A stretch of 64,000 nucleotides of DNA from Planctomycetota bacterium (lineage in GTDB: Bacteria > Planctomycetota > Phycisphaerae > Phycisphaerales > SM1A02), in assembly GCA_024230295.1 (NCBI GenBank), contig JAAERN010000147.1:62001-126000 (forward strand), in the 5' to 3' direction. Shown here piece by piece: positions 3,868-35,495 of this stretch. Each line of letters starts with the position of its first letter. Position 1 is the stretch's first letter. The position numbers were made by a program, and so were the translations under genes. The notes beneath the pieces are model-generated. The model was not told the DNA's origin. It saw nothing but the letters and a program-made list of their open reading frames with translations, and made no database searches.

Positions 3868-4671
3868 TCAGGCCTCGACGCGAAAGTTCGGAGATCGTCC
3901 GAGGAACGAAACCGGGTTGGCGAACGTCACCTTCTCGATCATGTCGGTTGAGTGGCGGCGGCGTTTCATTTCCATGCGAGCCTTGGGAACCGCCAATGGA
4001 TCGGAATCGCCCCAGTCGCCGGCAGAGTTCATCCAGATTCGGTCCGTACCCCACTGTTCGAGAATGTCGACCGCTCGCTGCGGCGTGCACTTGGTGTCCG
4101 GATAGAGTGTCATGCCGGCCCAGAATCCGCGGTCGAGGACCAGCCCGACGGTGTGTTCTTCAACATGATCAATAAGTACGCGATCGGGGTTGAGACCAGC
4201 ATTGTTCACCGCGTCCAGTATGAGACGCGTGCCCTTGTGTTTGTCTTCAAGATGTGGCGTGTGGACAAGTACGAGTTGGTTCCGCTGGCTCGCAAGTTCA
4301 AGATGCGCTTCCAGCACAGCGAGCTCGTTCTTGCTGTTCTTGTTCAGCCCGATCTCACCAATGCCAAGTACATTTGGGCGATCGAGAAAGTCCGGAATGA
4401 TGGACATCACTTCCTTCGCAAACCCAGTGTCCTCGGCTTCCTTTGGATTGATGCACAGCCAGCAGTGATGCTGAATTCCGTACTGCGCGGCTCGTTTCGG
4501 CTCGGTGTCCGTGAGTTGCCGGTAGTAGTCACGGAATCCATCGACACTGCACCGGTCAAAGCCGGCCCAGAAGGCTGGTTCGGTGATCGCTACGCAGCCT
4601 GCCTGCGCCATCCGGCGGTAGTCGTCCGTTGTTCGGGACACCATGTGGATGTGAGGATCGATGTATTTCAC
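3868..4671 (-). CDS. eboB: EboB-like TatD family metal-dependent hydrolase
   Basis: A 267-residue amidohydrolase-fold protein. It starts DPHIHM, the two-His metal motif, followed by GIGEIGLN (Glu ligand), VHTPH and IDHVEEH, in the order expected of TatD hydrolases. TatD proteins are usually nucleases or hydrolases, but the Ebo member has its own branch and unknown substrate. The ATG overlaps the stop of the preceding small gene as ATGA. It lies between the unknown 102-aa gene and eboE in a fully coupled operon. No signal peptide is seen. Confidence 0.88.
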   Translation of the reverse strand: MKYIDPHIHMVSRTTDDYRRMAQAGCVAITEPAFWAGFDRCSVDGFRDYYRQLTDTEPKRAAQYGIQHHCWLCINPKEAEDTGFAKEVMSIIPDFLDRPNVLGIGEIGLNKNSKNELAVLEAHLELASQRNQLVLVHTPHLEDKHKGTRLILDAVNNAGLNPDRVLIDHVEEHTVGLVLDRGFWAGMTLYPDTKCTPQRAVDILEQWGTDRIWMNSAGDWGDSDPLAVPKARMEMKRRRHSTDMIEKVTFANPVSFLGRSPNFRVEA

Positions 4672-4976
4672 GGCGCTAAATCCGGATTTGGCGCACCGAA
4701 GGCGCCCTGCATCGGCGCTGCAGCGATTGGCTCACTGGACGGATCGCTGAGCAGGAGTTGAATGCGCCGAGCTCGATCACCATCACCGTCGGTCAGGATT
4801 GCGATGGCCTCTCGGAGGCAGGCGATGCGAAAGTCGCTGCCGTCGCCGCCCGAACGCTCGAGGCGATCGAGAAATGCCGCAAGGTCGAGCACCTTCGCGC
4901 GGTTCTCGAGGAAGTAGGCATCAACTACATCGGTGGGGGACATTGGGCAGTGTGGCTTATGACTCATGGAGACCAT
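4668..4976 (-). CDS. Small unknown protein inside the ebo operon, in an eboA-like position
   Basis: A 102-residue soluble protein with a helical core (DVVDAYFLENRAKVLDLAAF, then FRIACLREAIAIL), a motif RRIQLLLSDPSSEPI and a short low-complexity tail. I do not recognise a family. Its ATG lies one base after the eboD stop, behind a GCGGGG stretch, and its stop overlaps eboB by ATGA, so it belongs to the operon. The frame runs upstream to a GTG at 5069, but that part overlaps eboD. Known ebo clusters carry eboA, a larger protein without obvious similarity to this one as I remember it. It could be a divergent eboA, or a lineage-specific subunit. Confidence 0.7.
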   Translation of the reverse strand: MVSMSHKPHCPMSPTDVVDAYFLENRAKVLDLAAFLDRLERSGGDGSDFRIACLREAIAILTDGDGDRARRIQLLLSDPSSEPIAAAPMQGAFGAPNPDLAP

Positions 4977-4977
4977 G

Positions 4978-6183
4978 CTACCCCGCTCGGGTCTGCCGCT
5001 TCTCGCATCTTCCTCGGACCATGCGAATGGCCTGTCGCATCTGATCGAGATCGATCGACGAGACCTCACTGGAGGTACCGATCTCAGTCACCATGGTGAT
5101 CGCAAGTATGCCACCAAGATGTTCCCTGAATCGCTCGATTCCTTCCAAGAGCCGATCTTCGTCGCCCATGGCATCGCTCGTCAATGGGAACCCAAGTGAT
5201 GCAAGGCAGTCAGTGACTCGGCTTACGAGCGAGGACGATCCGCCGAGACTCAAGGCCGCGTATTGCAGATCAATGAGAAGCCCGATTGCGACGGCGTCAC
5301 CATGCGAGAGGCGGAACCCGGTCATCTGCTCGAGCCGGTGAGCCGACCAATGGCCGAAGTCGAGCGGCCTCGCTCGTTGGATTTCAAATGGATCTCCGCC
5401 TTGAACGATGTGCGCGACGTGCAGATCGGCGGTCCGAGTCACAATACGTTCCATCGTTTTGAGATCACGGGCCATGAGTGCTTTGACTGATTGCTCGACA
5501 TCGTCGAGCAGGTCAGGGCTCTTGAGCAGCGCTACCTTGAGTGACTCGCTCAGGCCAGCTCGCCAGTCCCGATCGGTAAGCGTCGGTAGGAGTTCGGCAT
5601 CGTTGACGACGGCCCACGGCGGGGCAAACGTGCCGATGAGATTCTTGGCGCCGAAGGCATTGATACCGTTCTTGACACCAACACCCGCATCAGCCTGCCC
5701 TAAAGTGGTCGATGGGAGTCGGATCAACCGAACGCCGCGGTGGGCCGTACTGGCCGCGAGCCCGACAGCGTCGAGCATCGCGCCGCCGCCAACGGCGAGG
5801 ACAAATGACTGCCGGCAAATGCGTCGGTCATGAATGGCTCTGACCGTTTGGTCGAACACAGTTCGATCGTTTTTGGCCCCTTCGCCACCAGGGAGCACGA
5901 GAACAGTGCCCGCCGCCGAAAGCCGTGAGGCGTGCCGATCGATCCATGTATTGATGCTCGCGGGGAGGTCTGGCTGCGCCGCGGCGAGTCCCTCGTCCAT
6001 GACACAGAGAACGCGGTGTGGCGCGGCTTCATCCGGAAAGAGTTCAGCGAGCGAATCTCCCTCAGCCGTGAAGGCGTTATTGCAGGACAACACGCGATGC
6101 CGCCACCGCACTTGAATCGTTCCATTTGATGGCAGTTCTCGCACACTTGGCTCCGACACGCCCGCACCCTTTTCCGGCCCCAT
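4978..6183 (-). CDS. eboD: EboD-like 3-dehydroquinate synthase homologue
   Basis: A 401-residue member of the sugar-phosphate cyclase (AroB) superfamily. NAD-binding motifs are visible (GGEGAKN, AVGGGAMLDAVG), then PSTTLGQADAGVG and GAKNLIGTF. Candidate zinc ligands are Glu in GLSESLKVAL, His in LDFGHWSAH and His in LSHGDAVAIG. It opens the Ebo operon. The ATG has no clear Shine-Dalgarno; a GTG eight codons in is preceded by GGAAAAGGG and is an alternative start. The location in the cluster argues for EboD rather than a shikimate-pathway AroB, and its product is not known. Confidence 0.87.
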   Translation of the reverse strand: MGPEKGAGVSEPSVRELPSNGTIQVRWRHRVLSCNNAFTAEGDSLAELFPDEAAPHRVLCVMDEGLAAAQPDLPASINTWIDRHASRLSAAGTVLVLPGGEGAKNDRTVFDQTVRAIHDRRICRQSFVLAVGGGAMLDAVGLAASTAHRGVRLIRLPSTTLGQADAGVGVKNGINAFGAKNLIGTFAPPWAVVNDAELLPTLTDRDWRAGLSESLKVALLKSPDLLDDVEQSVKALMARDLKTMERIVTRTADLHVAHIVQGGDPFEIQRARPLDFGHWSAHRLEQMTGFRLSHGDAVAIGLLIDLQYAALSLGGSSSLVSRVTDCLASLGFPLTSDAMGDEDRLLEGIERFREHLGGILAITMVTEIGTSSEVSSIDLDQMRQAIRMVRGRCEKRQTRAG

Positions 6184-6316
6184 GATACGGTGAACGGCCG
6201 TGATTCCATGAACAGACCGCTAAGAAACCCTGACGGCCCTGTCTCGGCGATCTTCCGCTCTGGTCTCACCATCGATTTTCGACGTATCTCGCGGATATGC
6301 CTTCGAATCGACGGTG

Positions 6317-6372
6317 CGATCGGGACGAAACCTCGCTCGGCACTGGTCGCGACAGTGTTTCTGGGCAGCCTG
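6317..6372 (+). repeat. Right copy of the 56-bp direct repeat flanking the ebo cluster
   Basis: Same orientation as 477-532, 46 of 56 identities and no gaps. It lies about 130 bp upstream of the eboD start, in the otherwise empty stretch between eboD and the next plus-strand gene. The two copies bracket the six ebo genes almost exactly. Confidence 0.6.
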
Positions 6373-6383
6373 TTCGAGAACGC

Positions 6384-6406
6384 ATCATCCTCCGGCATAG
6401 GATGAT
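6384..6406. promoter_or_regulatory. Perfect 8-bp inverted repeat between eboD and the 6431 gene
   Basis: ATCATCCT, a 7-base spacer, then AGGATGAT. It sits 25 bp before a plus-strand ATG and about 200 bp upstream of eboD. There is no T tract, so an operator or a 5' leader hairpin is more likely than a terminator. Confidence 0.35.
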
Positions 6407-6430
6407 CAGCCTTTGATAGGGAGCAATCGT

Positions 6431-6901
6431 ATGAACAGCCTGCAAGATCGCGTTTGCCGTCTGGAATCCGGGACTCGGCGGAGAATGGTGCCGCTACTGC
6501 TGAGCGCAGGGCTGGTCGGTGGACTTCTCGGCGCAGCCGCATCGGACACCGTTTCCCGGCAATTGATGGGTGGGTCGCTGGTCATTGTGAATGAGGACGG
6601 TCGCCCCGTCATTACGCTCGGTTCGGGGCCGGAGGGTCACGGGCGAATGTTCATTCGGAACACGGACGGCACCGCCATGCTTGTGTTGCATGCCAACGCA
6701 GAGAGTGGGGACATCGACGTATTTGATGACGAAGGTCACCGGCTGGCAAAGCTCGGCAACTCTCCTACTGGAGACGGAATGCTGCTACTCAGCGGGGCTG
6801 ATGGTGAGGCGATTGTCAGGGCTGGAAGATGGGATGCTGCAACCGATCAGGGGCAGGTATGGCTTCGCGCTGATTCAACTACCGAGCCTTCCACGCCATG
6901 A
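6431..6901 (+). CDS. Membrane-anchored beta-repeat protein of unknown function
   Basis: A 156-residue protein with one hydrophobic segment near residues 16 to 35 (VPLLLSAGLVGGLLGAAAS). Three or four short beta repeats follow, of the form G-x-x-L-x-x-L-G-x-x-x-x-G, for example GRPVITLGSGPEGHG, GHRLAKLGNSPTGDG and LLLSGADGEA. The chosen ATG has TAGGGAG seven bases upstream; another ATG six codons earlier lacks one. The C-terminus overlaps the convergent aminotransferase by 23 bp. It probably faces the periplasm from a single membrane helix. No function can be assigned. Confidence 0.65.
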   Translation: MNSLQDRVCRLESGTRRRMVPLLLSAGLVGGLLGAAASDTVSRQLMGGSLVIVNEDGRPVITLGSGPEGHGRMFIRNTDGTAMLVLHANAESGDIDVFDDEGHRLAKLGNSPTGDGMLLLSGADGEAIVRAGRWDAATDQGQVWLRADSTTEPSTP

Positions 6902-8090
6902 GGCCAGCCTCCAGAATCTTCACGCTGCGTCGAAGTACATCTTCTTTGACGCAGTAGGCCATACGCACCTCGTTGAGGCCAAGCCCGTCTGTGCGGTAGA
7001 ACCCGGCGAGTGGAGCGAGGCAAACGGTTTCGCCGTCAAGATCGAAATCGCTCACAAGCCAGCGGCAGAACGCGTCGGCATCGTCAACAGGCAATGGGAT
7101 GGCAAGGTAGAACGCACCTTGGGGTGTCGGCACTTCAAGACCGATTCCGCGAAGCCCGTCGACGAGGATGTCGCGACGATTCTGATACTCGGCGTTGACT
7201 TGCCGGAACCACGACTCCGGAACAGAGAGTGCTGCGTGTGCCGCGTATTGATCAACACTTGCTGGTGAGAGCCGTGTCTGAGCAAAGCGAAGGGCGGCCT
7301 CGCGGAGTTCCGTATTTCTGGTGATGACCCAACCAATTCTCGCGCCGCAAGCGCTGTACCGCTTTGAGACGGAGTCAATGATGATCGCGTGTTCGTCCGC
7401 GGCCGGGATATCGAGCAGCGAAGCTGCCCGTGTTCCGGGTTCAACGTCGTAGACGAAGTCGCGATAGACCTCATCGCAGATGAAGAAGATGTCACGTTCG
7501 ACGCAGATCTTGGCGATGGCCTCAAGGACATCTCTACTCAGCACTGTTCCGGTCGGATTGCCGGGCGTGGGGAGTATGAGTGCGCGGGTTTTTCCTGTGA
7601 TAGCAGCCGCGATGGCGGCGGGATGAACTTGGAATCCATCCGATGCTGAGAGTGTGACGGGCGAAACTTCAACGCCAAGGAGATGGCTGAAGCCCGCATA
7701 GTTTGTGTAGTAGGGCTCGCATACGAGCACTTCATCGCCTGGATCAGTGACCGATGCGATTGAGAAGAGCAGCGCCTCGGAACCGCCAGTGGTGACGACA
7801 ATATCCTCCGCTTCGATATCTCGGTGAATGCCGCCACGATCGGAATACCAGACGGCGAGGTCTTGTCTGAAATCCACGAAGCCATCGCTGGGGGCGTAGG
7901 CCAGAACATCGTCGTGATAGTTGCGATAAGCCTCCGTCATTTCAGACGGCGTTGAAATATCTGGCTGGCCGATGTTCAGGGCATGCACCGTGATGCCGCG
8001 TGCCTCTGCGGCTCGGGCCAATCCGGCCAGAGCGCGAATGGGCGATGCTGGCGCCTCCGAGCCGCGTCTGGAAAGTGTGCATGTGGACAT
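6879..8090 (-). CDS. Class I/II aminotransferase (aspartate aminotransferase-like, PLP)
   Basis: A 403-residue fold-type I PLP enzyme. Typical blocks are NIGQP near the N-terminus, TTGGSEALLF (PLP phosphate site), PTPGNPTGTV, FICDEVYRDF, and the Schiff-base lysine in SVSKRYSACGARIGW. The Arg that binds the substrate carboxylate is probably in NEVRMAYC near the C-terminus. The ATG at 8090 is preceded by AGGAGG at good spacing, so an ATG 11 codons upstream is not used. Probable cytoplasmic amino-acid transaminase. Substrate (Asp, Ala or aromatic) cannot be fixed from sequence. It is a single-gene unit. Confidence 0.88.
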   Translation of the reverse strand: MSTCTLSRRGSEAPASPIRALAGLARAAEARGITVHALNIGQPDISTPSEMTEAYRNYHDDVLAYAPSDGFVDFRQDLAVWYSDRGGIHRDIEAEDIVVTTGGSEALLFSIASVTDPGDEVLVCEPYYTNYAGFSHLLGVEVSPVTLSASDGFQVHPAAIAAAITGKTRALILPTPGNPTGTVLSRDVLEAIAKICVERDIFFICDEVYRDFVYDVEPGTRAASLLDIPAADEHAIIIDSVSKRYSACGARIGWVITRNTELREAALRFAQTRLSPASVDQYAAHAALSVPESWFRQVNAEYQNRRDILVDGLRGIGLEVPTPQGAFYLAIPLPVDDADAFCRWLVSDFDLDGETVCLAPLAGFYRTDGLGLNEVRMAYCVKEDVLRRSVKILEAGLMAWKAR

Positions 8091-8273
8091 TGGCGAGTCC
8101 TCCTCTGTGCGGGCCACTTCCACGTTGGCCCACTCCTAAACCATGGCAGGGTATCAGGGGATTTCGGCGATATCCCAGCGGCACCTCTCGGTCACCTATA
8201 CTTGCCCGGTGTCCATTGAAACCACGCCCGCGATGGGTGTATGGCCCCTCGATGACTTCAGGAGAAGATGACC

Positions 8274-9065
8274 ATGTTTGTTCGATCCTTGTGCTCGCTG
8301 GCCCTGCTTGGGACGCTGACTTTGACTGGGACCGCTGTTGGTCAAGGCATGGCTGCGTCTGACGCGGCCCCTGTCGATCTTGATGTTCGATTGCGAGCAC
8401 TGGAGACGATGAACGGCGCCGCAAGCAGCAAACTGGCTGATGCCCTCGCTCATGAGAAGTCACTTCGTGGCTATGTTCAGCAGCAAGGGCTGGCAGCGGC
8501 GTGTGGCGAAGCTTCGTCAAACACTCAGCACGACATGGCATTGGGTTTCGACAAGGCGCTTGCGATCGCTATTCAACATGAGCAGGTGGCCCCGTCGGGT
8601 AGCAATACGAATGCGACCCCTGGCGAGATCAAGGCGTACACCGATCTCGCCAGTAGCACATGGGACAAACTTCAGTCTTCCATGGCGAACGTTGAGCATC
8701 TCAGCGACTGCTTGCACAAGCAGAAGAAGTTCAACGACTACCTCGGCTGGTCGGGCGATCAACAGAAGTCGCAGGCCGAAGCGATGAAGGCCCGCAATGC
8801 CGAGGTCTCCAAGAAGAACACTGAGCAGTTGAAAGAGACGGAGAAGAAGGAGGACGACGAGTACGCCGCCTTCAAGATCGCCCAGCAGAAGCAACACCAG
8901 GCCTTTTTGAATCAGTCATGGACGAAGTACAAGTTTGACCAGACCAATGACCTCAAGGCTTACAAGTACCGCACCCAATATGGACCAAACTCCTACTACA
9001 ACTCGTATGCCGGCAACATGTACGGTGGCGGTGGTGGTGGTGGCTACTACGGCGGCGGTTGGTGA
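8274..9065 (+). CDS. Exported coiled-coil protein with Gly/Tyr-rich C-terminus
   Basis: A 263-residue protein with a clear signal peptide (residues 1-24, cleavage near TAVGQG). A helical, Lys/Glu/Gln-rich middle includes a charged run around KKNTEQLKETEKKEDDEY and probably forms a coiled coil. The end is Tyr/Asn-rich with seven consecutive glycines (GGGGGGGYYGGGW). AGGAG lies nine bases before this ATG; the ATG two codons earlier is too close to it. A TATACT box about 70 bp upstream may be the -10. The glycine/tyrosine tail suggests a sticky surface or extracellular structural protein. No family recognised. Confidence 0.65.
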   Translation: MFVRSLCSLALLGTLTLTGTAVGQGMAASDAAPVDLDVRLRALETMNGAASSKLADALAHEKSLRGYVQQQGLAAACGEASSNTQHDMALGFDKALAIAIQHEQVAPSGSNTNATPGEIKAYTDLASSTWDKLQSSMANVEHLSDCLHKQKKFNDYLGWSGDQQKSQAEAMKARNAEVSKKNTEQLKETEKKEDDEYAAFKIAQQKQHQAFLNQSWTKYKFDQTNDLKAYKYRTQYGPNSYYNSYAGNMYGGGGGGGYYGGGW

Positions 9066-9077
9066 TCTAATCGCCGC

Positions 9078-9911
9078 TTAGCTCTGGCGGACTTTTGTCT
9101 GTTCCAACTCCGCGTAGGCGTTGTGTGAGTGGATCGACTCGAAGTTCTCGCTGTGAATCCGATACCAGTCGATTCGTGCTTCGGCGTCCAGACTATGGGC
9201 GAGATCGCGCACGATGTCTTCGACAAACTTCGGGTTCTCGAAGGCTTGTTCGGTCACTACTTTTTCATCGGGTCGTTTCAGCACGCTGTAGACCGGGCAG
9301 CTCGCCGATGCTTCAATGAGTTCGACGAGTTCTTCGATCCACACCATACGGTTCATGCGAATGTCGGCCGAGATGACGCACCGCTGGTTGTGCGCTCCAT
9401 ACTTGGAGATCTCCTTGGAGCACGGGCAGAGACTCGTCGCTGGAGCGGAGACGCCCAGTACAAACTCATCGCCTTGGCTCGATGAATCACACGTCATTCG
9501 GACGGCGTAATCCATAAGGCCAGGCCGTCCGGTAGCAGGCGCAAACTTCTTGATGAAGTAGGTGAATGCCATTTCGACATGTGCTCGCTCGGCGTCGAGT
9601 GCCTCTCGAATGCCGCGGCAGAGTTCGATGATTCGACTGGGCGACATGCCTTCCCGGTAGTCATTGAGCATTTCCAGAAAGCGGCTCATGTGTGTTCCCT
9701 TGCGGTCGTCTGCAAGAGATACATACATGTTGACCGTGGCATCAACAGATTCCTGATTGCCATCACGGGTGGTGACACTGATCGGATACCGAATCCCCTT
9801 CACGCCAACCCGATCGATAGCAACGCGTCGCTCGTCAGATCGGCCTTGGACGTCCGGGATAGATTCTGCGGTCACCTCGGTAGTCAATCTGTCTGTGGGA
9901 GTGGTCGTCAT
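9078..9911 (-). CDS. folE2: GTP cyclohydrolase FolE2 (type IB)
   Basis: Converts GTP to 7,8-dihydroneopterin triphosphate, the first step of folate (and queuosine) synthesis. The 277-residue protein has the signature blocks of the FolE2 family: IPDVQGRSDERR, VGVKGI, KGTHMSRF, TSLCPCSKEISKYGAHNQR with the metal-binding Cys, and SCPVYSVLKRPDEK. FolE2 differs in fold detail from FolE and works with several divalent metals, which helps bacteria under zinc limitation. It is cytoplasmic. The upstream lipoprotein gene is on the same strand 76 bp away, so co-transcription is possible but not evident. No canonical folE is in the window. Confidence 0.93.
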   Translation of the reverse strand: MTTTPTDRLTTEVTAESIPDVQGRSDERRVAIDRVGVKGIRYPISVTTRDGNQESVDATVNMYVSLADDRKGTHMSRFLEMLNDYREGMSPSRIIELCRGIREALDAERAHVEMAFTYFIKKFAPATGRPGLMDYAVRMTCDSSSQGDEFVLGVSAPATSLCPCSKEISKYGAHNQRCVISADIRMNRMVWIEELVELIEASASCPVYSVLKRPDEKVVTEQAFENPKFVEDIVRDLAHSLDAEARIDWYRIHSENFESIHSHNAYAELEQTKVRQS

Positions 9912-23569: not shown

Positions 23570-24072
23570 TGAGCAGATCACGGTCGTGCCGCCGAGGGGG
23601 GCCGTCGCATTTTCAGCAAAATGCCGTATGTTCGAGCCTATACCAGACAAATGGCGGCAATTGGACGAAGATCGCCGCATAAGCATGCGAATTCGACGCA
23701 ATTGAGCCACATCGCCTATCCGCTAGGGCATCGCCGCCTTGTGGGCTCATTTTTGCCTGTGGAGCAATTTGTCAAAGGCGAAACAAGTGCGAAGAAGCGG
23801 GCAATAAGACAAGAAATAGCGACAAATAGACGCAATTAGACAAAGTATCGGTTGGATAGCGGCATCGGGCATTGCTGTTGGTGGGCGTTCAGGCTTTATC
23901 CAGTGGGGTTTGGGGTTCGCGGCGGCCATCGCTGGGCTGCGGCCGCCTGGTCCAGAATGGCTTCTCGGAGATTGGACTTAAACAGACAAAATACCGATAA
24001 ACTGGTCTTGATATCAGGCCTATCTGGACCGATGCTGTTGTGTCCGGTAAGTCACTGGCGAGGAAACGGTTG
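23570..24072. other. 500-bp AT-richer intergenic stretch with short recurring motifs upstream of the heme operon
   Basis: No convincing gene. GCAATT occurs four times (23657, 23698, 23764, 23832), usually preceded by GGCG or GACG. AGACAA occurs four times (23644, 23807, 23838, 23984). A TGATATCA palindrome lies at 24009-24016. The stretch is clearly richer in A and T than its flanks. It probably holds the promoter region of the cytochrome gene, possibly with repeated protein-binding sites, or it is a decayed remnant. Confidence 0.35.
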
Positions 24073-26427
24073 ATGGAATATCAGGTTAGCGATCACACTT
24101 CATCGGGGAATCGCCCCCGGGGCGGCGGCGTTGACGCAGTATCTGAATGGCGATCGAAACTGACGAAGGTTGCCAGCGGACTGCTCCTCTATGAGTCGTT
24201 GACCGGATTGGCAATTCTGCTGTTGCCCTTCAGCCCCTTCAATCAGTTCAACGTCCTGCTGCACACCATTCTCGGCCTCGCCATGATTGCGCCGGTCCTG
24301 TGGTATTGCTGGCGGCACTGGATTGTCCGGCGCAAGGGCAACCTCAGCCACTACCAACTCATGGGGTACATCGCAGTAGCGCTGCTGTTGGCATGCCTTG
24401 TCAGTGGTGTTGTTCTGACGTGGCAAGGCGCCTTTGGAACAAGAATCGGGCTGACGTGGGATCTCGTCCACTTGGTCACCGGCATCGGCATGGCCATCTT
24501 CATCGTTGTCCATGTAGCCATGGTGGTCATTCGCCGAGTCAACAAGGAAGCGTCCCGCAGAGCATTGGCGGCGGCGCGGCGATCGTACTACGGGTGGTCG
24601 GCCGCGGTGTGTGCGCTGTTCGTGCTGGTGGGGCTCGGATGGGAGGCCAGCTACGAGTCGCCAGTACTTCAGACAGCGTTCGACGAAACGTACAACTGGC
24701 GGTACGGCGAGGATCGTCCCTTTGCGCCAAGCTTGGCACGCATCGAAAATACAGATTGGCAGGAGAGTGTCACTGATCGTGTTGAGGCTGCACTGCCTCA
24801 AGCGAAGCGACGTCTTTTTCACGCGTCACTCAAGGAAACTCAGCGGGATCCGATGGGCCTCTTTGCAAGATTGCGGCAGGGGGCAGCGCACGCCGAGGCC
24901 GACCAGTCCGAGCAATCGGCGATCGAAATGGTCCTGCAGGAAGAGTCGGCCCATGTGCGAGAGCAGAGTGCGATCGACCCACGCCTTCTCGGCGGATCGG
25001 CTGGTTGCGGCACAAGTGGCTGCCATCAGGAGATCTACAAAGAGTGGCTCCCGAGCGCGCACCGGTACTCATCGCTTGACATGATGTTTCAAGACGTGCA
25101 AGAGTTGATGGTCGCCGAGACCAGCGCAGAAGCAACGCGGTACTGCGGTGGTTGCCACGATCCGATTTCATTGTTTGCTGGTGCGAAGAATGCGCACACC
25201 GCCGTGGTGGGCAACCCAATCGGAATTGATGAGGGGACGAGCTGCCTGGTGTGTCACTCAATTGTTCAGACCGATGTGCAGGGCAATGGCGACTACACCA
25301 TTCGTCCGCCAGAGCGATATCTCTACGAATTGCACGAAGACGATCCGGTGGCCAAGTTCACCAGCGACTTCCTGATCAGGACCTATCCGAATCACCACAT
25401 CACCGAGTACTCCCGCCCGCTCTACAAGACTCCCGAGTTCTGCGCCGCGTGCCACAAGCAGTATCTCGATGTCGAAGTCAATACCGACATCGGCAAGGTT
25501 CAGGGGCAGAACCAATACGACAGTTGGTTGAACTCGCGCTGGTATCACGAAGACAGTCCAGATACCACCATCGGATGCCGCGAGTGCCACATGCCGCTGC
25601 AGCCGAGTAACGATCCTGCCGCCGGTGACCCGACCGATTACAACCGATCGCTCGTTGATGGAATGCACCGCGGTCACAGGATGTGTGGAGCCAATCAGTA
25701 CATCCCGACGCTGCAGAATCTCGAAGGGGGCGAGGAGCAGGTCCGCGAAGTAGAGAAGTGGCTCCGCGGCCAGACAGAGATCCCTGAAATAGCGGACAAG
25801 TGGACCCATGGCCCCGTTGTTCGCCTCGCGATCGATGCCCCAGAAACGATTGCGCCGGGTGAACAGGCCAACATTCGGGTGCTACTGACGAACAACAAGA
25901 CCGGACACGACTTCCCAACCGGCCCGCTCGACATGATCGAGAGTTGGATCGAACTCTCTGTAGTGGATGAGCAGGGTGAGTTGCTGTATCACTCTGGCGG
26001 TGTTGACGAAACGACCGACCAAATAGTGAATTCACAAGTGCTCTTCAAGGCCGATGGGTTCGACCGCAAAGGCGAGTTGATTGACCGCCACAACCTCTGG
26101 GATTTGGTCGGGGCCTCCTACAAGCGGTCGCTCTACCCCGGCGTCACCGACACATTTGAGGCCGAGTTGGTGTGTCCATCGATGGCGAGAGGGAGGTTGG
26201 ACATCGACCCTCGCGAGGCTCCGGGAGTTCGAGTTGACCAGTTTGCCGTCTCCGCAGCCGATCCCGGAACGCTTCGCGTCAAGGCGGTACTGTGGTACCG
26301 CAAGGCCAACCCAGAGTTTCTTGACCGTGTGTACGGCACCGAGGACGACGTTCGAAGTCCGGTGACCGCGATCTCAGAAACCGAGGTTGTGATCAGGGTT
26401 CAGGATGTCCAAGCGCGGATTCAATAA
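24073..26427 (+). CDS. Membrane-anchored five-heme c-type cytochrome
   Basis: A 784-residue protein. The first 200 residues carry five membrane helices with buried His residues (VLLHTILGL, WDLVHLVTG, FIVVHVAMV), like a small cytochrome b. The rest is periplasmic with five heme c sites: CGTSGCH at 312 (a CX4CH form), then CGGCH at 358, CLVCH at 391, CAACH at 457 and CRECH at 502. This resembles the cytochrome c554-type domain. A C-terminal 250 residues looks like beta sandwich. GAGGA about eight bases before ATG sets the start. It overlaps the CRTAC1 gene by 23 bp. Likely quinol or periplasmic electron transfer; partner unknown. Confidence 0.82.
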   Translation: MEYQVSDHTSSGNRPRGGGVDAVSEWRSKLTKVASGLLLYESLTGLAILLLPFSPFNQFNVLLHTILGLAMIAPVLWYCWRHWIVRRKGNLSHYQLMGYIAVALLLACLVSGVVLTWQGAFGTRIGLTWDLVHLVTGIGMAIFIVVHVAMVVIRRVNKEASRRALAAARRSYYGWSAAVCALFVLVGLGWEASYESPVLQTAFDETYNWRYGEDRPFAPSLARIENTDWQESVTDRVEAALPQAKRRLFHASLKETQRDPMGLFARLRQGAAHAEADQSEQSAIEMVLQEESAHVREQSAIDPRLLGGSAGCGTSGCHQEIYKEWLPSAHRYSSLDMMFQDVQELMVAETSAEATRYCGGCHDPISLFAGAKNAHTAVVGNPIGIDEGTSCLVCHSIVQTDVQGNGDYTIRPPERYLYELHEDDPVAKFTSDFLIRTYPNHHITEYSRPLYKTPEFCAACHKQYLDVEVNTDIGKVQGQNQYDSWLNSRWYHEDSPDTTIGCRECHMPLQPSNDPAAGDPTDYNRSLVDGMHRGHRMCGANQYIPTLQNLEGGEEQVREVEKWLRGQTEIPEIADKWTHGPVVRLAIDAPETIAPGEQANIRVLLTNNKTGHDFPTGPLDMIESWIELSVVDEQGELLYHSGGVDETTDQIVNSQVLFKADGFDRKGELIDRHNLWDLVGASYKRSLYPGVTDTFEAELVCPSMARGRLDIDPREAPGVRVDQFAVSAADPGTLRVKAVLWYRKANPEFLDRVYGTEDDVRSPVTAISETEVVIRVQDVQARIQ

Positions 26428-28228
26428 ACGCCACGCACTCATGCTTCGCTGGGGAGCACCGACCGCAGTGTTGACGGTTGGGGCGGCTGTCGCAGTGGTG
26501 CTCTTGACGCAACGCGGCGATCCAATGGCCCCCGGCGAAGATGGTTCGATCGACGGGTTGACCTCGGTGCTCTCGAGAGAGACCACCAGCGATATGGTCA
26601 CAATTTCACTGGTTGATGAGACAGGCGGCTCGGGCATCGAGTTCAAACACTTTCCCGATACGCGGCGATCGGTGTTGCCTGAGGACATGGGCTCCGGCGC
26701 GGCGTGGGGCGACTACGACGACGACGGTGACCAGGATCTCTTTCTTGTCAACTTTGCCGCGTCCATTCTGGAGCCTCTTCCCTTAGAGCCCGGCGCGGGC
26801 TCGTCGCGTCTGTATCGAAACGATGGTGCGGGCAACTTTGTCGATGTGACTGAGAAAGCAGGGCTTGCAAAACCGATTCGTGGAAACGGTGCAGCTTGGG
26901 CCGACTTTGACGGAGATGACGATCTGGATCTGTACATCACGGCTTGGGGCGAGAATCGACTGTACCGAAACGATGACGGTGCGTTTGTGGACATTGCATC
27001 TGAGGCAGGTGTGGATGATGGCGGATTCGGAACGGGAATCGCCTGGTTCGACGCGGACAGCGACGGGTGGATTGATCTGTATGTGTGCAACTATGTCGAT
27101 TTCGAGTATCGCGAAGATGATCTGGCCCGCCGAGAGAAACAGTACGGGGCCGAGGTGCCCTTTACGCTCAATCCGTCTTCATACAAATCGCAGCCCAATC
27201 GGCTCTATCGCAACAACGGGGATGGCACGTTTTCGGATATTGCGGAGGCGTCCGGCGTCGATGACAAGACAGGCAGAAGCCTCGGCGCCGCGCCGTTCGA
27301 CTTTGACCTCGATGGAGACATCGACCTTTACGTTGCCAATGATGTATCCGCCAACGGAGTCTTTTTGAATCAGGGCGATGGAACCTTCAAGGATATTGGC
27401 GCGTCTTCGTTGGCGGCTGACTACCGCGGAGCGATGGGCATGGCCGTTGGTGACATGGACCAAGACGACGACTTCGACTTGTTTGTTACGCACTGGATTG
27501 CGCAGGAAAATGCGGCGTTCGAGAACATGCACTCGGAGAACTGGAAGGACAAGGAGGGCAACCGTCGAATGTTCTTCATGGACAGCGCCGAGATGCTCGG
27601 TCTTGGTCAGGTATCGCTGAAGATGGTCGGATGGTCGACGGGGTTTGCCGACTTTGACAACGATGGCCTCGACGACCTGTGGGTTGTCAACGGCCACACG
27701 TTGGAAGACGAAGCCGATGCCACCAAGCTTCGCCCCCAGCGCATGCAACTCTTCCGGCAGATTTCCGATGAAGGTTTCTTCGATCTTGGAGAGGCCGCCA
27801 GTAAGTCGATCGCGGTTCCTCTTGTTGGCCGCGGCGGCGCCTCGGCAGATTTCAACGGTGACGGCCTTGTCGATCTTCTTGCCGTCGAGTGTGGGGGGAG
27901 GCCTCGGCTTCTTCGCAACGCGTCGGCATCGCCGGGCAACCATCTTGTCGTTCAGTTGCGGCAGCCCGGCCCAAATACGCGGGCGTTGGGGGCGATCGTC
28001 CGAGTGACCACGCCCGCGGGAACTCAAATGCGGCAGGTTGGCGGGCAGGCGGCCTACCTCTCCCAGGACATGCTCGACCCCCTGTTTGGCCTTGGCGAAG
28101 CGGATCGAGCTTCCATCGAGGTGGTATGGCCGGATGGGCTGATATCTGAGGAATCCGACATGCCGGCGGGATCGTCGGTCCAGTTTCGACGCACTGAAGA
28201 GGGCAAAATCAGCGTCGATCACCACTGA
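26405..28228 (+). CDS. CRTAC1/ASPIC-UnbV protein with FG-GAP repeats
   Basis: A 607-residue exported or membrane-tethered protein with an N-terminal hydrophobic segment (residues 17-35). A series of FG-GAP/VCBS calcium-binding blades follows: WGDYDDDGDQDLFLVN, WADFDGDDDLDLYITAWG, FDLDGDIDLYVAND and FADFDNDGLDDLWVVNGH. The last 120 residues are the ASPIC/UnbV domain (NHLVVQLRQPG, LGAIVRVTT, SIEVVWPDG). Its start lies inside the end of the cytochrome gene, so the two are made together. CRTAC1 proteins often sit beside multiheme cytochromes in planctomycetes; their job is not established. Confidence 0.87.
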   Translation: MSKRGFNKRHALMLRWGAPTAVLTVGAAVAVVLLTQRGDPMAPGEDGSIDGLTSVLSRETTSDMVTISLVDETGGSGIEFKHFPDTRRSVLPEDMGSGAAWGDYDDDGDQDLFLVNFAASILEPLPLEPGAGSSRLYRNDGAGNFVDVTEKAGLAKPIRGNGAAWADFDGDDDLDLYITAWGENRLYRNDDGAFVDIASEAGVDDGGFGTGIAWFDADSDGWIDLYVCNYVDFEYREDDLARREKQYGAEVPFTLNPSSYKSQPNRLYRNNGDGTFSDIAEASGVDDKTGRSLGAAPFDFDLDGDIDLYVANDVSANGVFLNQGDGTFKDIGASSLAADYRGAMGMAVGDMDQDDDFDLFVTHWIAQENAAFENMHSENWKDKEGNRRMFFMDSAEMLGLGQVSLKMVGWSTGFADFDNDGLDDLWVVNGHTLEDEADATKLRPQRMQLFRQISDEGFFDLGEAASKSIAVPLVGRGGASADFNGDGLVDLLAVECGGRPRLLRNASASPGNHLVVQLRQPGPNTRALGAIVRVTTPAGTQMRQVGGQAAYLSQDMLDPLFGLGEADRASIEVVWPDGLISEESDMPAGSSVQFRRTEEGKISVDHH

Positions 28229-28295: not shown

Positions 28296-28317
28296 ACCAC
28301 CTCCGATTGTCGGTGGT
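28296..28317. promoter_or_regulatory. Inverted repeat downstream of a TATACT box, before the Rrf2 gene
   Basis: ACCACC ... TCGGTGGT, with a CCGA/TCGG inner part, lies six bases after TATACT (28285-28290), a likely -10. A dyad at the transcription start of a regulator gene suggests autoregulation. The right arm is close to the GAGGG Shine-Dalgarno. Confidence 0.4.
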
Positions 28318-28333
28318 TGAGGGATGGCACCAC

Positions 28334-28792
28334 ATGCTTTCAGCGACTTCTGAATATGCGCTTCGAATGATGATTCTTCTGACTGAGGCGGATGGCATGC
28401 CGACTACGTGTGCCAAACTCAGTGAAGTCGGGCGGATTCCGCCGCAGTACGCCTCCAAGGTGCTCAATCTGCTCAGGCGGGCTGCCATGGTGAAGGGGCA
28501 GCGGGGTCGCTACGGCGGCTTTGTCATTGGGTGTGACTCATCCAATACGACGCTCTTGGATATCGTCAATGTGATCGAACCACTGCAGCGTATCGAAGGG
28601 TGTCCGCTTGGACGGTCGGAGCATTCGCACCAACTGTGTCCACTGCACTCGCAGATTGATACGGCGATCGCCCAGTTGGAGGCGGCACTGGCGCAACTCA
28701 CGCTGCGACAGTTGGTGGAGGAGAGCGACTCGGCGGTGCTGTGTCAGGACGCGTCCATCGCCAACCTGACTGTTAGCGCTCAGACGACCTGA
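28334..28792 (+). CDS. Rrf2 family transcriptional regulator
   Basis: A 152-residue winged-helix regulator with the Rrf2 N-terminus (MLSATSEYALRMMILL), the recognition helix region PPQYASKVLNLLRRAAMV and the wing RGRYGGFVIG. After the dimerisation helix come GCPLG (Cys90) and QLCPLHSQ (Cys102, His105). IscR and NsrR use three Cys for an iron-sulfur cluster; here only two lie in that region, with Cys67 nearby. It may sense Fe-S, redox or nitric oxide state. GAGGG about ten bases upstream supports the start. It lies between the heme operon and tryptophanase and may control either. Confidence 0.85.
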   Translation: MLSATSEYALRMMILLTEADGMPTTCAKLSEVGRIPPQYASKVLNLLRRAAMVKGQRGRYGGFVIGCDSSNTTLLDIVNVIEPLQRIEGCPLGRSEHSHQLCPLHSQIDTAIAQLEAALAQLTLRQLVEESDSAVLCQDASIANLTVSAQTT

Positions 28793-28853: not shown

Positions 28854-30233
28854 ATGGTCGATGACCGCACGTTCGAAACCATCATCGAGCCCTTTCGCAT
28901 CAAGACTGTGGAGCCGCTTCGGCGTACGACAAGAGCGCGGCGAGAAACTGCGCTCCGAGAGGCGGGCTGGAATCTATTCTCGGTTCACGGCGAGGATGTG
29001 CTGATCGATCTACTGACGGATTCGGGGACCGGGGCGCTCTCGGCGCGGCAGTGGGGCATGATGATGCAGGGCGACGAAACGTACGCCGGTGCCGATTCGT
29101 TCTATCGATTCGAGGCTGCCGTGAAGGACATCACCGGTCTCGATCATGTCATTCCGACCCATCAGGGTCGAGCCGCCGAGCGCATTCTCTTTCGCGCGAT
29201 GGTGAATCCAGGTGATCTGGTTATCAACAACACGCACTTCGATACGACGCGAGCAAATGTCGAGTATCGCGAGGGCGTCGCGATGGACATTCCGTGCCGC
29301 GAGGCGGCGGATCAGGACGATCATCCATTCAAGGGCAACATAGATCTAGAGCAACTCGAAGAGGTGCTCTCGGGCAATCCCGGTCGGGTTCCGCTCGTCA
29401 TGATCACCGTGACCAACAATTCGGGCGGCGGGCAGCCTGTGAGCCTCGGCAATATCCGGGCCGCGCGAGCAATCTGTGATCGACACAAGGTGCCACTCTT
29501 CCTGGATGCATGTCGATTTGCCGAGAATGCCTGGTTTATTCACTTGCGAGAGGAAGGTCAGCAGGATCGAACGCCAATCGAGATCGCGCGTGAGATGTTC
29601 TCGCTCGTCGACGGCGCCACCATGAGCGCTAAGAAGGACGGCATGGCGAACATCGGCGGGTTCCTGGCGCTGAACGATATGGATGTTGTTGTGCAGTGCC
29701 GCAACATGCTCATCTTGACCGAGGGCTTTCCAACGTATGGGGGACTTGCCGGATACGACCTTGAGGCGGTCGCGGTGGGGCTCTACGAGGCGCTCGAAGA
29801 GGACTACCTTCGGTATCGCATCCGGAGCATCGCCTACCTCGCAGATCGCTTGGCGGAAGTTGGTATTCCCATGATTACGCCCCCGGGGGGACACGCGCTG
29901 TATTTGGACGCTGGGAAGATGCTTCCGCACATTCCATGGAACGAGTACCCAGGATGGTCGCTGGCGGTCGCAATCTATCTTGAGGGCGGCATCCGTGGCT
30001 GCGAGATTGGATCGGTCATGTTCGGGCAGCAGCCCGACGGCACCGAGCAGGCCGCTCCGCGAGAACTTGTTCGACTGGCCTTTCCGCGGCGGGTATACAC
30101 GCAGAGCCACGTCGACTACGTAGCGGAGGTATTGCTGCGGGTCTACGCCAACCGAGACCAACTCCGAGGCATGAAAATGCTCGACTCGCCGCCTGTGCTC
30201 CGGCACTTCACCGCCCGCCTTGAGCCCATCTGA
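28854..30233 (+). CDS. tnaA: Tryptophanase (tryptophan indole-lyase)
   Basis: A 459-residue PLP beta-eliminating lyase, normal length for the family. It opens EPFRIKTVEPLRRTTRA and continues IDLLTDSGTGA, PTHQGRAAE, FDTTRANVEY, NNSGGGQPVS and MSAKKDG, which holds the PLP lysine (260 or 261). Tyrosine phenol-lyase has an Arg in the segment SMERG where tryptophanase has EIGS; here it is CEIGSVMFG, so tryptophanase is favoured. It splits Trp to indole, pyruvate and ammonia. GGAGA lies about nine bases upstream. No tnaC leader or tnaB permease was seen. Confidence 0.88.
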   Translation: MVDDRTFETIIEPFRIKTVEPLRRTTRARRETALREAGWNLFSVHGEDVLIDLLTDSGTGALSARQWGMMMQGDETYAGADSFYRFEAAVKDITGLDHVIPTHQGRAAERILFRAMVNPGDLVINNTHFDTTRANVEYREGVAMDIPCREAADQDDHPFKGNIDLEQLEEVLSGNPGRVPLVMITVTNNSGGGQPVSLGNIRAARAICDRHKVPLFLDACRFAENAWFIHLREEGQQDRTPIEIAREMFSLVDGATMSAKKDGMANIGGFLALNDMDVVVQCRNMLILTEGFPTYGGLAGYDLEAVAVGLYEALEEDYLRYRIRSIAYLADRLAEVGIPMITPPGGHALYLDAGKMLPHIPWNEYPGWSLAVAIYLEGGIRGCEIGSVMFGQQPDGTEQAAPRELVRLAFPRRVYTQSHVDYVAEVLLRVYANRDQLRGMKMLDSPPVLRHFTARLEPI

Positions 30234-32488: not shown

Positions 32489-32687
32489 TCCCAGACCGCG
32501 AGGTCAGCCGAATCAGCGTTTGAGCGAAGTTACTACCGGGCCCCTTTGCCAAAGTGAGTAATAATCAGTTGTCTCGGGGGATTCCTCGCTTGACAATGGC
32601 CGTAGAAATGTCCGTGGCTTCTTGGTGGGGCCGCTGTGTTCTGGTGGTGTGAGGGATACCACGGGCCGATGTCCCGAGGAGAGATGC

Positions 32688-35495
32688 ATGCATCACATTT
32701 TTTGCCGCCTTTTACCTGCTGTTGCCGGTTTGATGATCGCCGCTTCCGCGGCCGCCGATCCTGGAGACGATTTCTTCGACGACTCAGTCGTTCAGGAGAT
32801 CCGGATCTGGTTCGATGACCCAGACTGGTTCAACACGCTCGAAGATTCGCACGCGAGCGACCCGGACGACCCCTACTTTTCCTGCCGGTTCGAGAGCGGC
32901 GACACCGTGATCGACCCCTGCGGCGTTCGGATGAAGGGCAACTCGTCCTTTAGCCTTCCCGTCAAGAAGTCGTTCAAATTCGACTTCGACGAGTACGATG
33001 AGGACAACCCCGATCTCAACTTCGATGGGCTCAAAAAACTCAACCTGAATAACTCATTCAAAGATCCCACGATGATGCGGGAGAAACTCTTTCACGAGTT
33101 CGTGTCGGCCTATGCCCCGGCTTGCCGAGTCGTCCATTGCCGGCTCTACATTAACGATGAGTACTGGGGCCTCTACTCTGCCGTAGAGCAGGTGAACAAG
33201 GACTTTGTGCAGCGCAACTTCGGGGATGGCGAAGACGGCAACCTCTACAAGTGCGAGTCAACTGGTGGGTCTGGCTTTGGTTCAAACCTCGCTTGGATCG
33301 ACAGTAATCCAGAATCGTACTGGAACACCTACGAATTGGAGACGAACGAGACCGACTGGGACTACAGCGGCTTAGTTGAGTTCATCGATTTGCTCAACAA
33401 CTCGTCGGTAGCCGATCGCCCGGCAGTACTCGAGCCTGTTGCAGATGTGGACGGAATGCTTCAAGCAATCGCGCTCAATTGTCTGTTTGTGAATCTCGAT
33501 GCCTACAACGGGTCGGCTCACAACTACTACGTGTATGACCGCGACGATACTGGTCTGTTCACGCACATCTTCTGGGATGCCAACGAGGCGTTCGGGACTT
33601 TCCGCATGGGCATGCCACCAAACGAAGACGCTCGCGAGATGGAGGCGATGTGGCTTCCTGCGGGATCTCCACCCAATGGATCCGAGCCTCGCCCGCTCAT
33701 GGAGCGGCTGTGGGAGGTTAATGATTATCGCCGCGCCTATCTGCGGCACCTCGCTCGCTTTCTGCGAGAGGGCTTTGATGTGGATTCGTTCGATCCCCGC
33801 ATCACGGAGATCGCCGACCTCATCCGTGCCGATGTGTACGCGGACGGCAACAAGCAGTACAGCAACAGCGACTTCGAGCAGAACCTCGATAGCGATGTTG
33901 GCGGCGGCGGCGGTCCTGGTGGGGGAACGATCTACGGCTTGACTTCGTTTGTGCAGGAGCGAGCCGCCTTCATGAATGCCCACTTGGACACCTTCTCCTC
34001 TCGCAGCGACCTGCAACTCAATGAACTCATGAGTGTCAACGTGGCAACTCTGGCCGATGAATATGGGGACTACGACCCATGGATTGAGATCTACAACCTC
34101 GGGCCTGGAATGGTTTTCTCAAGCAACGTCTATGTGTCTGATGATGTCGCGGCACCGAACAAGTGGCAGATTCCTGGCGAGTCGGTGGACGATGGCACGT
34201 TCTTGGTGCTTTGGATGGATGGAGAGGCCGGCGAAGGTCCGCTGCACTCAAACTTCGCACTCGACGCCGCCGGCGGCGAACTGTTCTTCTCGAAGCGAAC
34301 TGGCTCGACCTACCAACTCATCGATAGCGTGGCGTATCCCGCCTTGGGTGACGATGAGTCGTGGGGACGCAGCCACGAGGAAGAGTCGGAGTGGCAAATC
34401 AATGCTTCGGCGACTCCCGACGCCGCCAACGAGCGGGCGCTTCCGAATCTTGAGGGCGTGCTCTTCATCAACGAGTTTATGGCCGACAACGGAAGCACCA
34501 TTGCCGACGAGACCGGGGCGTTCGAAGACTGGATTGAACTTTACAACGCAAGTGAGGATCAACTCGATCTCGGCGGTCTGTACATGAGCGACGATCTGCT
34601 CGACCCGATGATGTGGATGATTCCAGACGGGACCACGATCGAGGCCGGTGGTTACCTGCTCATCTGGGCAGATTCCGATGCCGAAGATGGACCGCTGCAT
34701 GCTGACTTCAAGCTTGGCGCTGGTGGCGAAGAGATCGCTCTCTCTGCGAGCGATGGCGCTACGCTGATCGACTCGATCGTCTTCGGCGATCAAGCCGAAG
34801 ATGTCTCGATGGGGCGTATTCCCGATGGCGGCGACGATTGGCAGTACCTCTCAATGCCGACGCCGGAGGCCGCTAACGTGGCCAATCCCCCGGAGACCCC
34901 AGAGCTCTACGTCAACGAACTCATGGCCGACAACGATACGACCATCGCCGACGAGGCGGGCGAGTACGACGACTGGTTCGAGATCTACAACCCCGGTGAC
35001 GAAGACGTCGATCTTGGTGGACTGTTCATGACCGATGACCTCGCCGATCCCGGTGCGTGGCAGGCTCCCGACGGTCTCATTGTTCCTGCAGGCGGCTTCC
35101 TGCTGATTTGGGCCGACAACGACGCCGATCAGGGTGACAATCATGCGACCTTCAAGTTCGGCGCCGGTGGTGAGACCGTTGCGATCTATGCCACCGACGG
35201 CGTGACCATTATCGACACCTTCGACTTCGGCGTGCAGGAGATCGATGTGTCCTATGGGCGCACCACCGATGGCGGTGAGACGCTGGACTATCTCACCAGC
35301 GCAACGCCTGGTACCAGCAACGAAGGTGGTGACCCATGCACCGGTGATCTCAACGGCGATGGGTTCGTCGGTGTCGATGACTTGCTCGCGGTTATCGCTG
35401 CGTGGGGAACTGCGGACGGCGATGTGGACGGTGACGGCATGACCGGCGTCGACGACCTGCTGCTGCTGATCAGCGCGTTCGGAGAGTGTGGCTGA
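32688..35495 (+). CDS. Exported CotH kinase-like protein with three lamin-tail domains and dockerin-like tail
   Basis: A 935-residue protein with a signal peptide (VAGLMIAASAAADP). The CotH domain (about 30-440) has VRMKGNSSF, KKSFKFDFDEY, NNSFKDPTMMREKL and EYWGLYSAVEQVNKDF, as well as FWDANEAFGTF. CotH proteins of spore coats are atypical kinases that phosphorylate proteins; the role in planctomycetes is unknown. Three lamin-tail domains start near 442, 591 and 740 (NELMS, NEFMADN, NELMADN). A two-repeat dockerin-like tail closes with FGECG. GAGGAGA supports the start. A strong terminator follows. Confidence 0.85.
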   Translation: MHHIFCRLLPAVAGLMIAASAAADPGDDFFDDSVVQEIRIWFDDPDWFNTLEDSHASDPDDPYFSCRFESGDTVIDPCGVRMKGNSSFSLPVKKSFKFDFDEYDEDNPDLNFDGLKKLNLNNSFKDPTMMREKLFHEFVSAYAPACRVVHCRLYINDEYWGLYSAVEQVNKDFVQRNFGDGEDGNLYKCESTGGSGFGSNLAWIDSNPESYWNTYELETNETDWDYSGLVEFIDLLNNSSVADRPAVLEPVADVDGMLQAIALNCLFVNLDAYNGSAHNYYVYDRDDTGLFTHIFWDANEAFGTFRMGMPPNEDAREMEAMWLPAGSPPNGSEPRPLMERLWEVNDYRRAYLRHLARFLREGFDVDSFDPRITEIADLIRADVYADGNKQYSNSDFEQNLDSDVGGGGGPGGGTIYGLTSFVQERAAFMNAHLDTFSSRSDLQLNELMSVNVATLADEYGDYDPWIEIYNLGPGMVFSSNVYVSDDVAAPNKWQIPGESVDDGTFLVLWMDGEAGEGPLHSNFALDAAGGELFFSKRTGSTYQLIDSVAYPALGDDESWGRSHEEESEWQINASATPDAANERALPNLEGVLFINEFMADNGSTIADETGAFEDWIELYNASEDQLDLGGLYMSDDLLDPMMWMIPDGTTIEAGGYLLIWADSDAEDGPLHADFKLGAGGEEIALSASDGATLIDSIVFGDQAEDVSMGRIPDGGDDWQYLSMPTPEAANVANPPETPELYVNELMADNDTTIADEAGEYDDWFEIYNPGDEDVDLGGLFMTDDLADPGAWQAPDGLIVPAGGFLLIWADNDADQGDNHATFKFGAGGETVAIYATDGVTIIDTFDFGVQEIDVSYGRTTDGGETLDYLTSATPGTSNEGGDPCTGDLNGDGFVGVDDLLAVIAAWGTADGDVDGDGMTGVDDLLLLISAFGECG

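Follow-up and report, generated by a model that had tools for sequence, protein, structure and literature searches.

The question raised by this locus is what function is served by a membrane-bound multiheme cytochrome of a Planctomycetota bacterium and by the CRTAC1-family protein encoded directly behind it. Both genes are located on the forward strand of the window, meaning the whole stretch of 64,000 nucleotides of contig JAAERN010000147.1 that was analyzed; the assembly carrying it comprises 2.7 Mb in 180 contigs, and the close named relatives of the locus are Phycisphaerales. The first gene (24073..26427, +) encodes a protein of 784 residues in which a five-helix membrane domain with two putative heme b sites, five c-type heme motifs and a C-terminal immunoglobulin (Ig)-like domain are combined in a single chain, abbreviated here as b2c5. 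The second gene (26405..28228, +) encodes a CRTAC1-like protein of 607 residues with FG-GAP repeats and an ASPIC/UnbV domain (residues 527-591). With a probability of about 0.45, we suggest that the two proteins form a quinol-linked periplasmic electron-transfer module that is used in nitrate/N-oxide respiration.

The cytochrome gene starts with an ATG at 24073, behind a plausible ribosome site (GAGGAAA, 24060-24066); an in-frame GTG is also present at 24040. Its end overlaps the start of the CRTAC1 gene by 23 bp (26405..26427, +), and the identical 23-bp overlap was found again in many relatives, Parabeggiatoa included. A gene encoding an Rrf2-family regulator (28334..28792, +; ATG at 28334, with a TTG at 28307 as an alternative start) begins approximately 100 bp past the end of the CRTAC1 gene. 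A preliminary description of this DNA had reported a five-helix anchor with histidines, one CX4CH and four CXXCH motifs in a single chain, which was borne out by the open reading frames (ORFs), the AlphaFold model and the alignments; the overlap with an FG-GAP/ASPIC gene and the Rrf2 gene downstream, also reported there, agreed with the ORFs and the Pfam matches.

Homologues of the cytochrome were found in 204 of 392 Planctomycetota genomes and fall into two forms, A, to which the protein in the window belongs, and B, its sister. Form B proteins are about 950 residues long, have five CXXCH motifs and C-terminal TPR repeats, and carry in their N-terminal membrane domain conserved histidines spaced 18 and 14 residues apart, like those of form A. 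The host genome also has a form B pair (locus L069, G000:C66:1-18000), in which a gene for a 934-residue b2c5 cytochrome with TPR repeats (6486-9290, -) overlaps a CRTAC1 gene (4622-6493, -).

The pairing of cytochrome and CRTAC1 genes is conserved in both forms. A CRTAC1 gene lies downstream on the same strand at 31 of 35 form A loci, and at the other four the contig ends at most 331 bp from the cytochrome gene, although a CRTAC1 gene can be seen to begin at one of them (L048). At L065 the reading frame of CRTAC1 is fragmented. Genes in this survey are simple ORF picks among which spurious antisense ORFs occur, and over-long ORFs account for its large negative overlaps and for the printed row of L047, which reads as upstream and was counted as downstream. 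Among 80 named form A loci, chosen as the best of 410 confirmed matches rather than at random, the CRTAC1 gene is downstream on the same strand in 70. Contigs end within about 1.1 kb at five loci without it (L114, L133, L153, L154 and L169) and within 1 kb, with other genes next, at L144 and L145; at L142, L151 and L171 there is room and no CRTAC1 gene. At form B loci the arrangement is found in 24 of 25, with L076 as the exception. The 80 loci include members of Planctomycetota, Gammaproteobacteria (Parabeggiatoa, Thiomargarita and Woeseiaceae), Acidobacteria, Gemmatimonadetes, Rhodothermales, Poribacteria, KSB1, Latescibacterota and Krumholzibacteriia. After removal of seven that repeat loci already in the first set, the neighbor counts are based on 108 form A loci. 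Distances among the cytochromes and among their CRTAC1 partners are correlated (Mantel r 0.85, 48 pairs, 0 of 2000 permutations), as co-inheritance would give. In this gene-neighbor survey, of a kind that the preliminary description had proposed, the pairing with CRTAC1 and the Rrf2 neighbor both recurred.

The AlphaFold model of the cytochrome (mean pLDDT 83.4, poor at residues 662-684) contains five transmembrane helices (residues 29-50, 55-86, 93-121, 127-153 and 159-193; 24157..24651, +). Helix 2 bears His64 and His82 and helix 4 bears His133 and His147, and all four are invariant in both the 25 and the 56 aligned relatives. The charged loops suggest that the N-terminus is inside and the c-type domain in the periplasm, so that the pair 64/133 would lie near the periplasm and the pair 82/147 near the cytoplasm. 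These two pairs are proposed, on the basis of the predicted topology, to be the ligands of two b hemes. In Pfam, the cytochrome had no more than hints of multiheme and b-type families below threshold: the NapC/NirT/NrfH family (PF03264) matched with an E value of 0.31 and 11.2 bits against a cut-off of 24.1, and NrfA (PF02335) gave no match at E values up to 1. No solved b-type membrane cytochrome was among the matches listed in the VIA structure comparison, a listing that is taken up by matches to the Ig-like domain and says nothing against the b domain.

The c-type half has five heme motifs, namely CGTSGCH (CX4CH; residues 312-318; 25006..25026, +), CGGCH (residue 358; 25144..25158, +), CLVCH (residue 391; 25243..25257, +), CAACH (residue 457; 25441..25455, +) and CRECH (residue 502; 25576..25590, +). 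The preliminary description had called the first of these unusual. However, it is standard in this family: among 108 loci, site 1 is CX4CH in 102 and CX2CH in three, with three not covered by the pattern, so that it is a real site and no chance occurrence, is exchangeable with the ordinary motif and has CX4CH as its normal form here. The modeled periplasmic half shares the fold of the penta-heme cytochrome c552 of Thermochromatium tepidum (5ZE8), which matched with a Foldseek E value of 1.1e-9 and, in the VIA comparison, with a Z score of 19.6 and a root-mean-square deviation of 3.3 over 327 aligned residues (302-774); the next row had a Z score of 10.0 and covered one domain. The sequence search of the cytochrome also returned 5ZE8 as the best match. 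Rows 2-50 of the VIA comparison align mostly with the Ig-like domain (residues ~581-777; 25813..26403, +). Against the ExtKL model NF040886 the window protein scored 24.4 bits with a cut-off of 250, and weak matches to this model were found in 46 of 56 relatives.

Thirteen histidines are invariant when 56 form A and 25 form B proteins are aligned: the four of the b domain, five proximal to the c hemes and four distal ones, His330, His442, His535 and His612 in window numbering. Two more, His532 and His673, are invariant in form A only. The four conserved distal histidines provide four c hemes with an obvious His partner, and for the fifth the candidate distal ligand or pocket residue is His673 (26089..26091, +), which lies in a part of the model with low confidence and is invariant in form A (56 of 56) and replaced by Arg in form B (25 of 25).

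The partner protein is clearly a member of the CRTAC1 family. Its FG-GAP and ASPIC/UnbV matches scored 131.9 and 50.2 bits against Pfam cut-offs of 26.9 and 23.4, its model had a pLDDT of 91.8, and murine CRTAC1 (9ETN) was matched by both phmmer (4.6e-18) and Foldseek (E 8e-31). The model predicts an N-terminal membrane anchor (helix 8-35; 26426..26509, +), and in 48 of 51 aligned relatives the N-terminus has a segment above the threshold of hydrophobicity that follows basic residues, while none of the relatives matched a lipobox pattern. The protein is therefore most likely periplasmic and anchored in the inner membrane beside the cytochrome, and the role of outer adaptor that had been suggested for it was rejected on account of this anchor. 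The invariant positions of CRTAC1 are mainly Asp and include no Cys, which gives no hint that the protein itself binds a metal or heme.

Both genome content and gene neighborhood linked form A to nitrate respiration. In Planctomycetota, NarG (at least 860 bits, 54 genomes) was found in 24 of the 34 genomes with form A (match E below ~1e-90) and in 30 of the 358 without it (Fisher p 6e-16); form A may be undercounted in this comparison, as two candidates were scored per genome. At the strict cut-off (50 genomes) the figures were 21/34 and 29/358 (p 7e-13), and the association persisted when families were kept fixed (permutation p 0.001), a test that covers the genomes for which the family was listed; the lists of genomes with NarG were transcribed from the tabulated matches. 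Genomes with form B showed no such link (NarG in 3 of 77). NarG genes adjoin form A at three loci (L049, L054 and L174), a type II dimethyl sulfoxide (DMSO)-reductase-like enzyme is encoded beside it at L126, and narG is located on the same contig, 15-17 kb away, in genomes G016 and G154. Genes for NnrS are near five loci (L065, L113, L128, L157 and L163) and a gene for ScdA is near L158. No NarG, NnrS or ScdA neighbor was found at the 25 form B loci, a result that is weak alone, since these loci cover 0.47 Mb as compared to 1.26 Mb for the 108 form A loci. Phylum-wide matches to NnrS (PF05940) were mostly weak, and no general co-occurrence is claimed for it.

On the strength of the NarG link, the module was taken to be an electron carrier of nitrate/N-oxide respiration. 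In the proposed mechanism, the five-helix domain would hold two b hemes across the inner membrane and exchange electrons with the quinone pool, with quinol as the probable donor. From there the electrons would reach the periplasmic domain, which has the penta-heme c552 fold and would bind five c hemes covalently, four of them between conserved pairs of His. Anchored in the same membrane, the CRTAC1 propeller would sit beside the c-type domain as a regular structural or docking partner. Form A would send the electrons on to a periplasmic acceptor in nitrate/N-oxide respiration, with an Rrf2 regulator encoded beside the module in some lineages.

Rrf2 genes were found near 15 of the 108 form A loci and at none of the 25 form B loci. 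The Rrf2 protein in the window scored 82 bits in Pfam (cut-off 30) and 87.2 bits with TIGR00738 (cut-off 73.3). NsrR, an NO-sensing Rrf2 protein, has a three-Cys motif, which is present in 13 of the 16 Rrf2 proteins beside the module. The window protein has lost the middle Cys and scored 46.1 bits against 182 for the NsrR model, and it was not assigned to NsrR. At four loci (L120, L129, L138 and L150) a cluster encoding a Rieske protein, cytochrome b and a GltD-like flavoprotein adjoins the module, mostly with an Rrf2 gene; at L147 the flavoprotein and Rrf2 genes alone are present.

The genes of the host for nitrogen oxide metabolism were also inspected. Its narG gene is split over two contigs and accompanied by narH, two NarK-like transporter genes and ScdA, with NarH and NarK named from sequence. 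Its NarI is fused to c-type heme domains with two CXXCH motifs (L176, 4498-6024). A further cluster (L181, 138-3897) encodes, as judged from the translations, a ferredoxin-like protein, an NrfD-like membrane protein and an octaheme HAO-like cytochrome with eight CXXCH motifs. An octaheme HAO-like gene was commoner with form A (25 of 34 genomes) than without it (108 of 358; p 1e-6), but not clearly so within NarG genomes (19/24 and 16/30, respectively; p 0.08). Feeding of the octaheme enzyme by the module was considered, but because the octaheme gene of the host sits with NrfCD-like genes, it is put forward as no more than a possibility. As for other enzymes, NirK exceeded its cut-off in one of 64 genomes and NosZ in four of 64, NirS-like proteins above 390 bits were found in seven of 64 and NrfA above 270 bits in 24 of 64, and NirB was over its cut-off in none of 24.

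Several observations weigh against the assignment to nitrate/N-oxide respiration or against parts of the module as proposed. NarG is absent from 10 of the 34 form A genomes, and outside Planctomycetota, where there was no control set, it was found in 12 of 31. Neighbors related to N-oxides occur at a minority of loci only. The co-occurrence of form A with NarG could reflect a shared low-oxygen habitat. In the host, NarI has its own c-type domain and the octaheme gene has NrfCD-like genes, so that neither obviously needs the module. The gammaproteobacterial loci L142, L144, L145 and L151 have the cytochrome and no CRTAC1 gene. Finally, the b domain in the window is below every Pfam family cut-off, and at E 0.001 no more than 4 of 56 relatives had a match to DUF4405 and no more than 2 a match to cytochrome b561.

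Alternatively, the module itself might be a membrane-bound, quinol-fed terminal reductase, in which the fifth c heme is not bis-His and a small oxyanion or NO would bind in a pocket containing Arg672 and His673, both positions being Arg in form B. Such a reductase is unlikely in our view. Just four distal histidines are common to both forms, His673 giving way to an invariant Arg in the sister form, and section 14 of PMC11976967 describes models of the cable-bacteria proteins sPHC and lPHC, which have the same fold, with at least one pentacoordinate heme and possible catalysis. On the other hand, His673 may simply be the fifth ligand, in a region where the model is poor. By the cut-offs used, NrfA, NirK and NirS are all lacking in 16 of the 24 genomes with both form A and NarG, but NarG genomes without form A lack them almost as often (15 of 30; Fisher p 0.27), and an octaheme HAO-like gene is present in 13 of these 16 genomes, so that a nitrite reductase need not be missing. 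The argument from a missing nitrite reductase was thereby weakened. Somewhat less likely than a reductase is an inward flow of electrons, in which the c-type domain would oxidize a periplasmic donor, be it another cytochrome or a compound of sulfur or nitrogen, and quinone would be reduced at the b hemes. The sequence sets no direction, relatives occur in the large sulfur bacteria Parabeggiatoa and Thiomargarita, and 5ZE8 is from a purple sulfur bacterium with a sulfur role suggested in PMC11976967; nevertheless, the strongest association is with a quinol-consuming nitrate reductase, and no sulfur-oxidation gene was recognized among the annotated neighbors.

Less probable again is an extended version of the reductase proposal, according to which a b2c5 and CRTAC1 complex found across several phyla would take electrons from quinol and itself reduce nitrite or NO at the Arg/His pocket of the fifth heme, supplying this step in nitrate respirers without NrfA, NirK and NirS, while the sister form would carry out a related reaction on another substrate. 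The least probable of the readings weighed here is that the module, like CbcL, works at the inner-membrane end of a route for extracellular electron transfer, or that it forms wires and is a relative of the cytochrome nanowires of archaea. The c-type fold is linked to ExtKL and AvECN in PMC11976967, CbcL is a known fusion of diheme-b and multiheme-c domains (PMC9129911), and an 11-heme cytochrome gene is near L144, L145, L151 and L162. However, no porin was recognized beside the loci examined, the c-type domain is tethered to the inner membrane, and its regular partner is a membrane-anchored propeller. Use as a quinol-linked electron carrier in nitrate/N-oxide respiration is the reading that we prefer.

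Other features near the module were recorded as well. A CcsA-like gene is near all four gammaproteobacterial loci without CRTAC1, and a Crp-type regulator is near three of them. At five loci, a tryptophanase/tyrosine phenol-lyase-like gene is near the module (28854-30233 in the window, and L051, L062, L097 and L147). A secreted-looking protein of 957 residues encoded at 32622-35495 ends in two dockerin-like repeats, as seen in its translation. Ahead of the cytochrome gene, the stretch GATAAAC..TCTTGATAT..GGCC (23996-24021) is partly common to two close relatives and is a possible regulator or promoter site. Five upstream stretches aligned poorly, with a short stretch common to three close relatives, and a promoter scan found nothing exceeding shuffled sequences.

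The module had been described preliminarily as a possibly undescribed one, and this view can be kept in part. No characterized family with the full architecture was found, no Pfam or NCBIfam model was over its cut-off for the b2c5 fusion or for the architecture of its pairing with CRTAC1, and in the literature searched, which covered few subscription papers, neither the fusion nor the pairing was described. What is already known is the fold of the c-type domain, shared with 5ZE8 and PHC/ExtKL, and the existence of fusions of b and multiheme-c domains such as CbcL. The reversed b2c5 fusion in two forms, with its near-constant CRTAC1 partner, therefore looks undescribed, short of a proof of novelty. 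CRTAC1 of animals is an extracellular protein, and we know of no established role for the bacterial members of the family. These are common in Planctomycetota, and a constant quinone-type cytochrome partner provides a concrete handle on one of them. If the pair is a true respiratory complex, it would fill a gap in what is known of electron flow in many uncultured bacteria, given that 204 of 392 Planctomycetota genomes have a homologue of one form or the other, and the NarG link makes the module directly testable in nitrate-respiring lineages.

Several known systems are close to parts of the module. Like the window protein, 5ZE8 has five c hemes, according to its title, and an Ig-like part; it differs in having CX2CH at the position of the CX4CH motif and in lacking the five-helix b domain, its chain being 435 residues long, and the identity over the aligned part is 20%. 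Through 5ZE8 the protein falls into the same fold group as the PHC family (ExtKL, Gsu2801 and the cable-bacteria sPHC and lPHC), whose members are extracytoplasmic soluble cytochromes and, unlike the window protein, have no CRTAC1 partner named in the accessible parts of PMC11976967. The CbcL, MtrH and MtoC proteins (PMC6295460, PMC9129911) resemble it in joining a diheme-b membrane domain and a periplasmic multiheme-c domain in one chain. CbcL, however, carries nine c hemes in the N-terminal half of the chain and six helices in the C-terminal one, whereas the window cytochrome has the reverse order, five helices, five hemes and the 5ZE8 fold, and hence departs from the CbcL-type architecture. 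The bacterial CRTAC1 protein has the same family and fold as murine CRTAC1 (9ETN) but, unlike the animal protein, carries a membrane anchor at its N-terminus, and its gene adjoins that of a cytochrome. The sole link between CRTAC1 and heme proteins in the literature searched is provided by the HZS-like clusters of Planctomycetota (PMC12758564), in which the heme proteins are homologous to HZS alpha and HZS beta-gamma; the likeness rests on the gene neighborhood, a CRTAC1-family gene being located beside heme-protein genes there as in the window.

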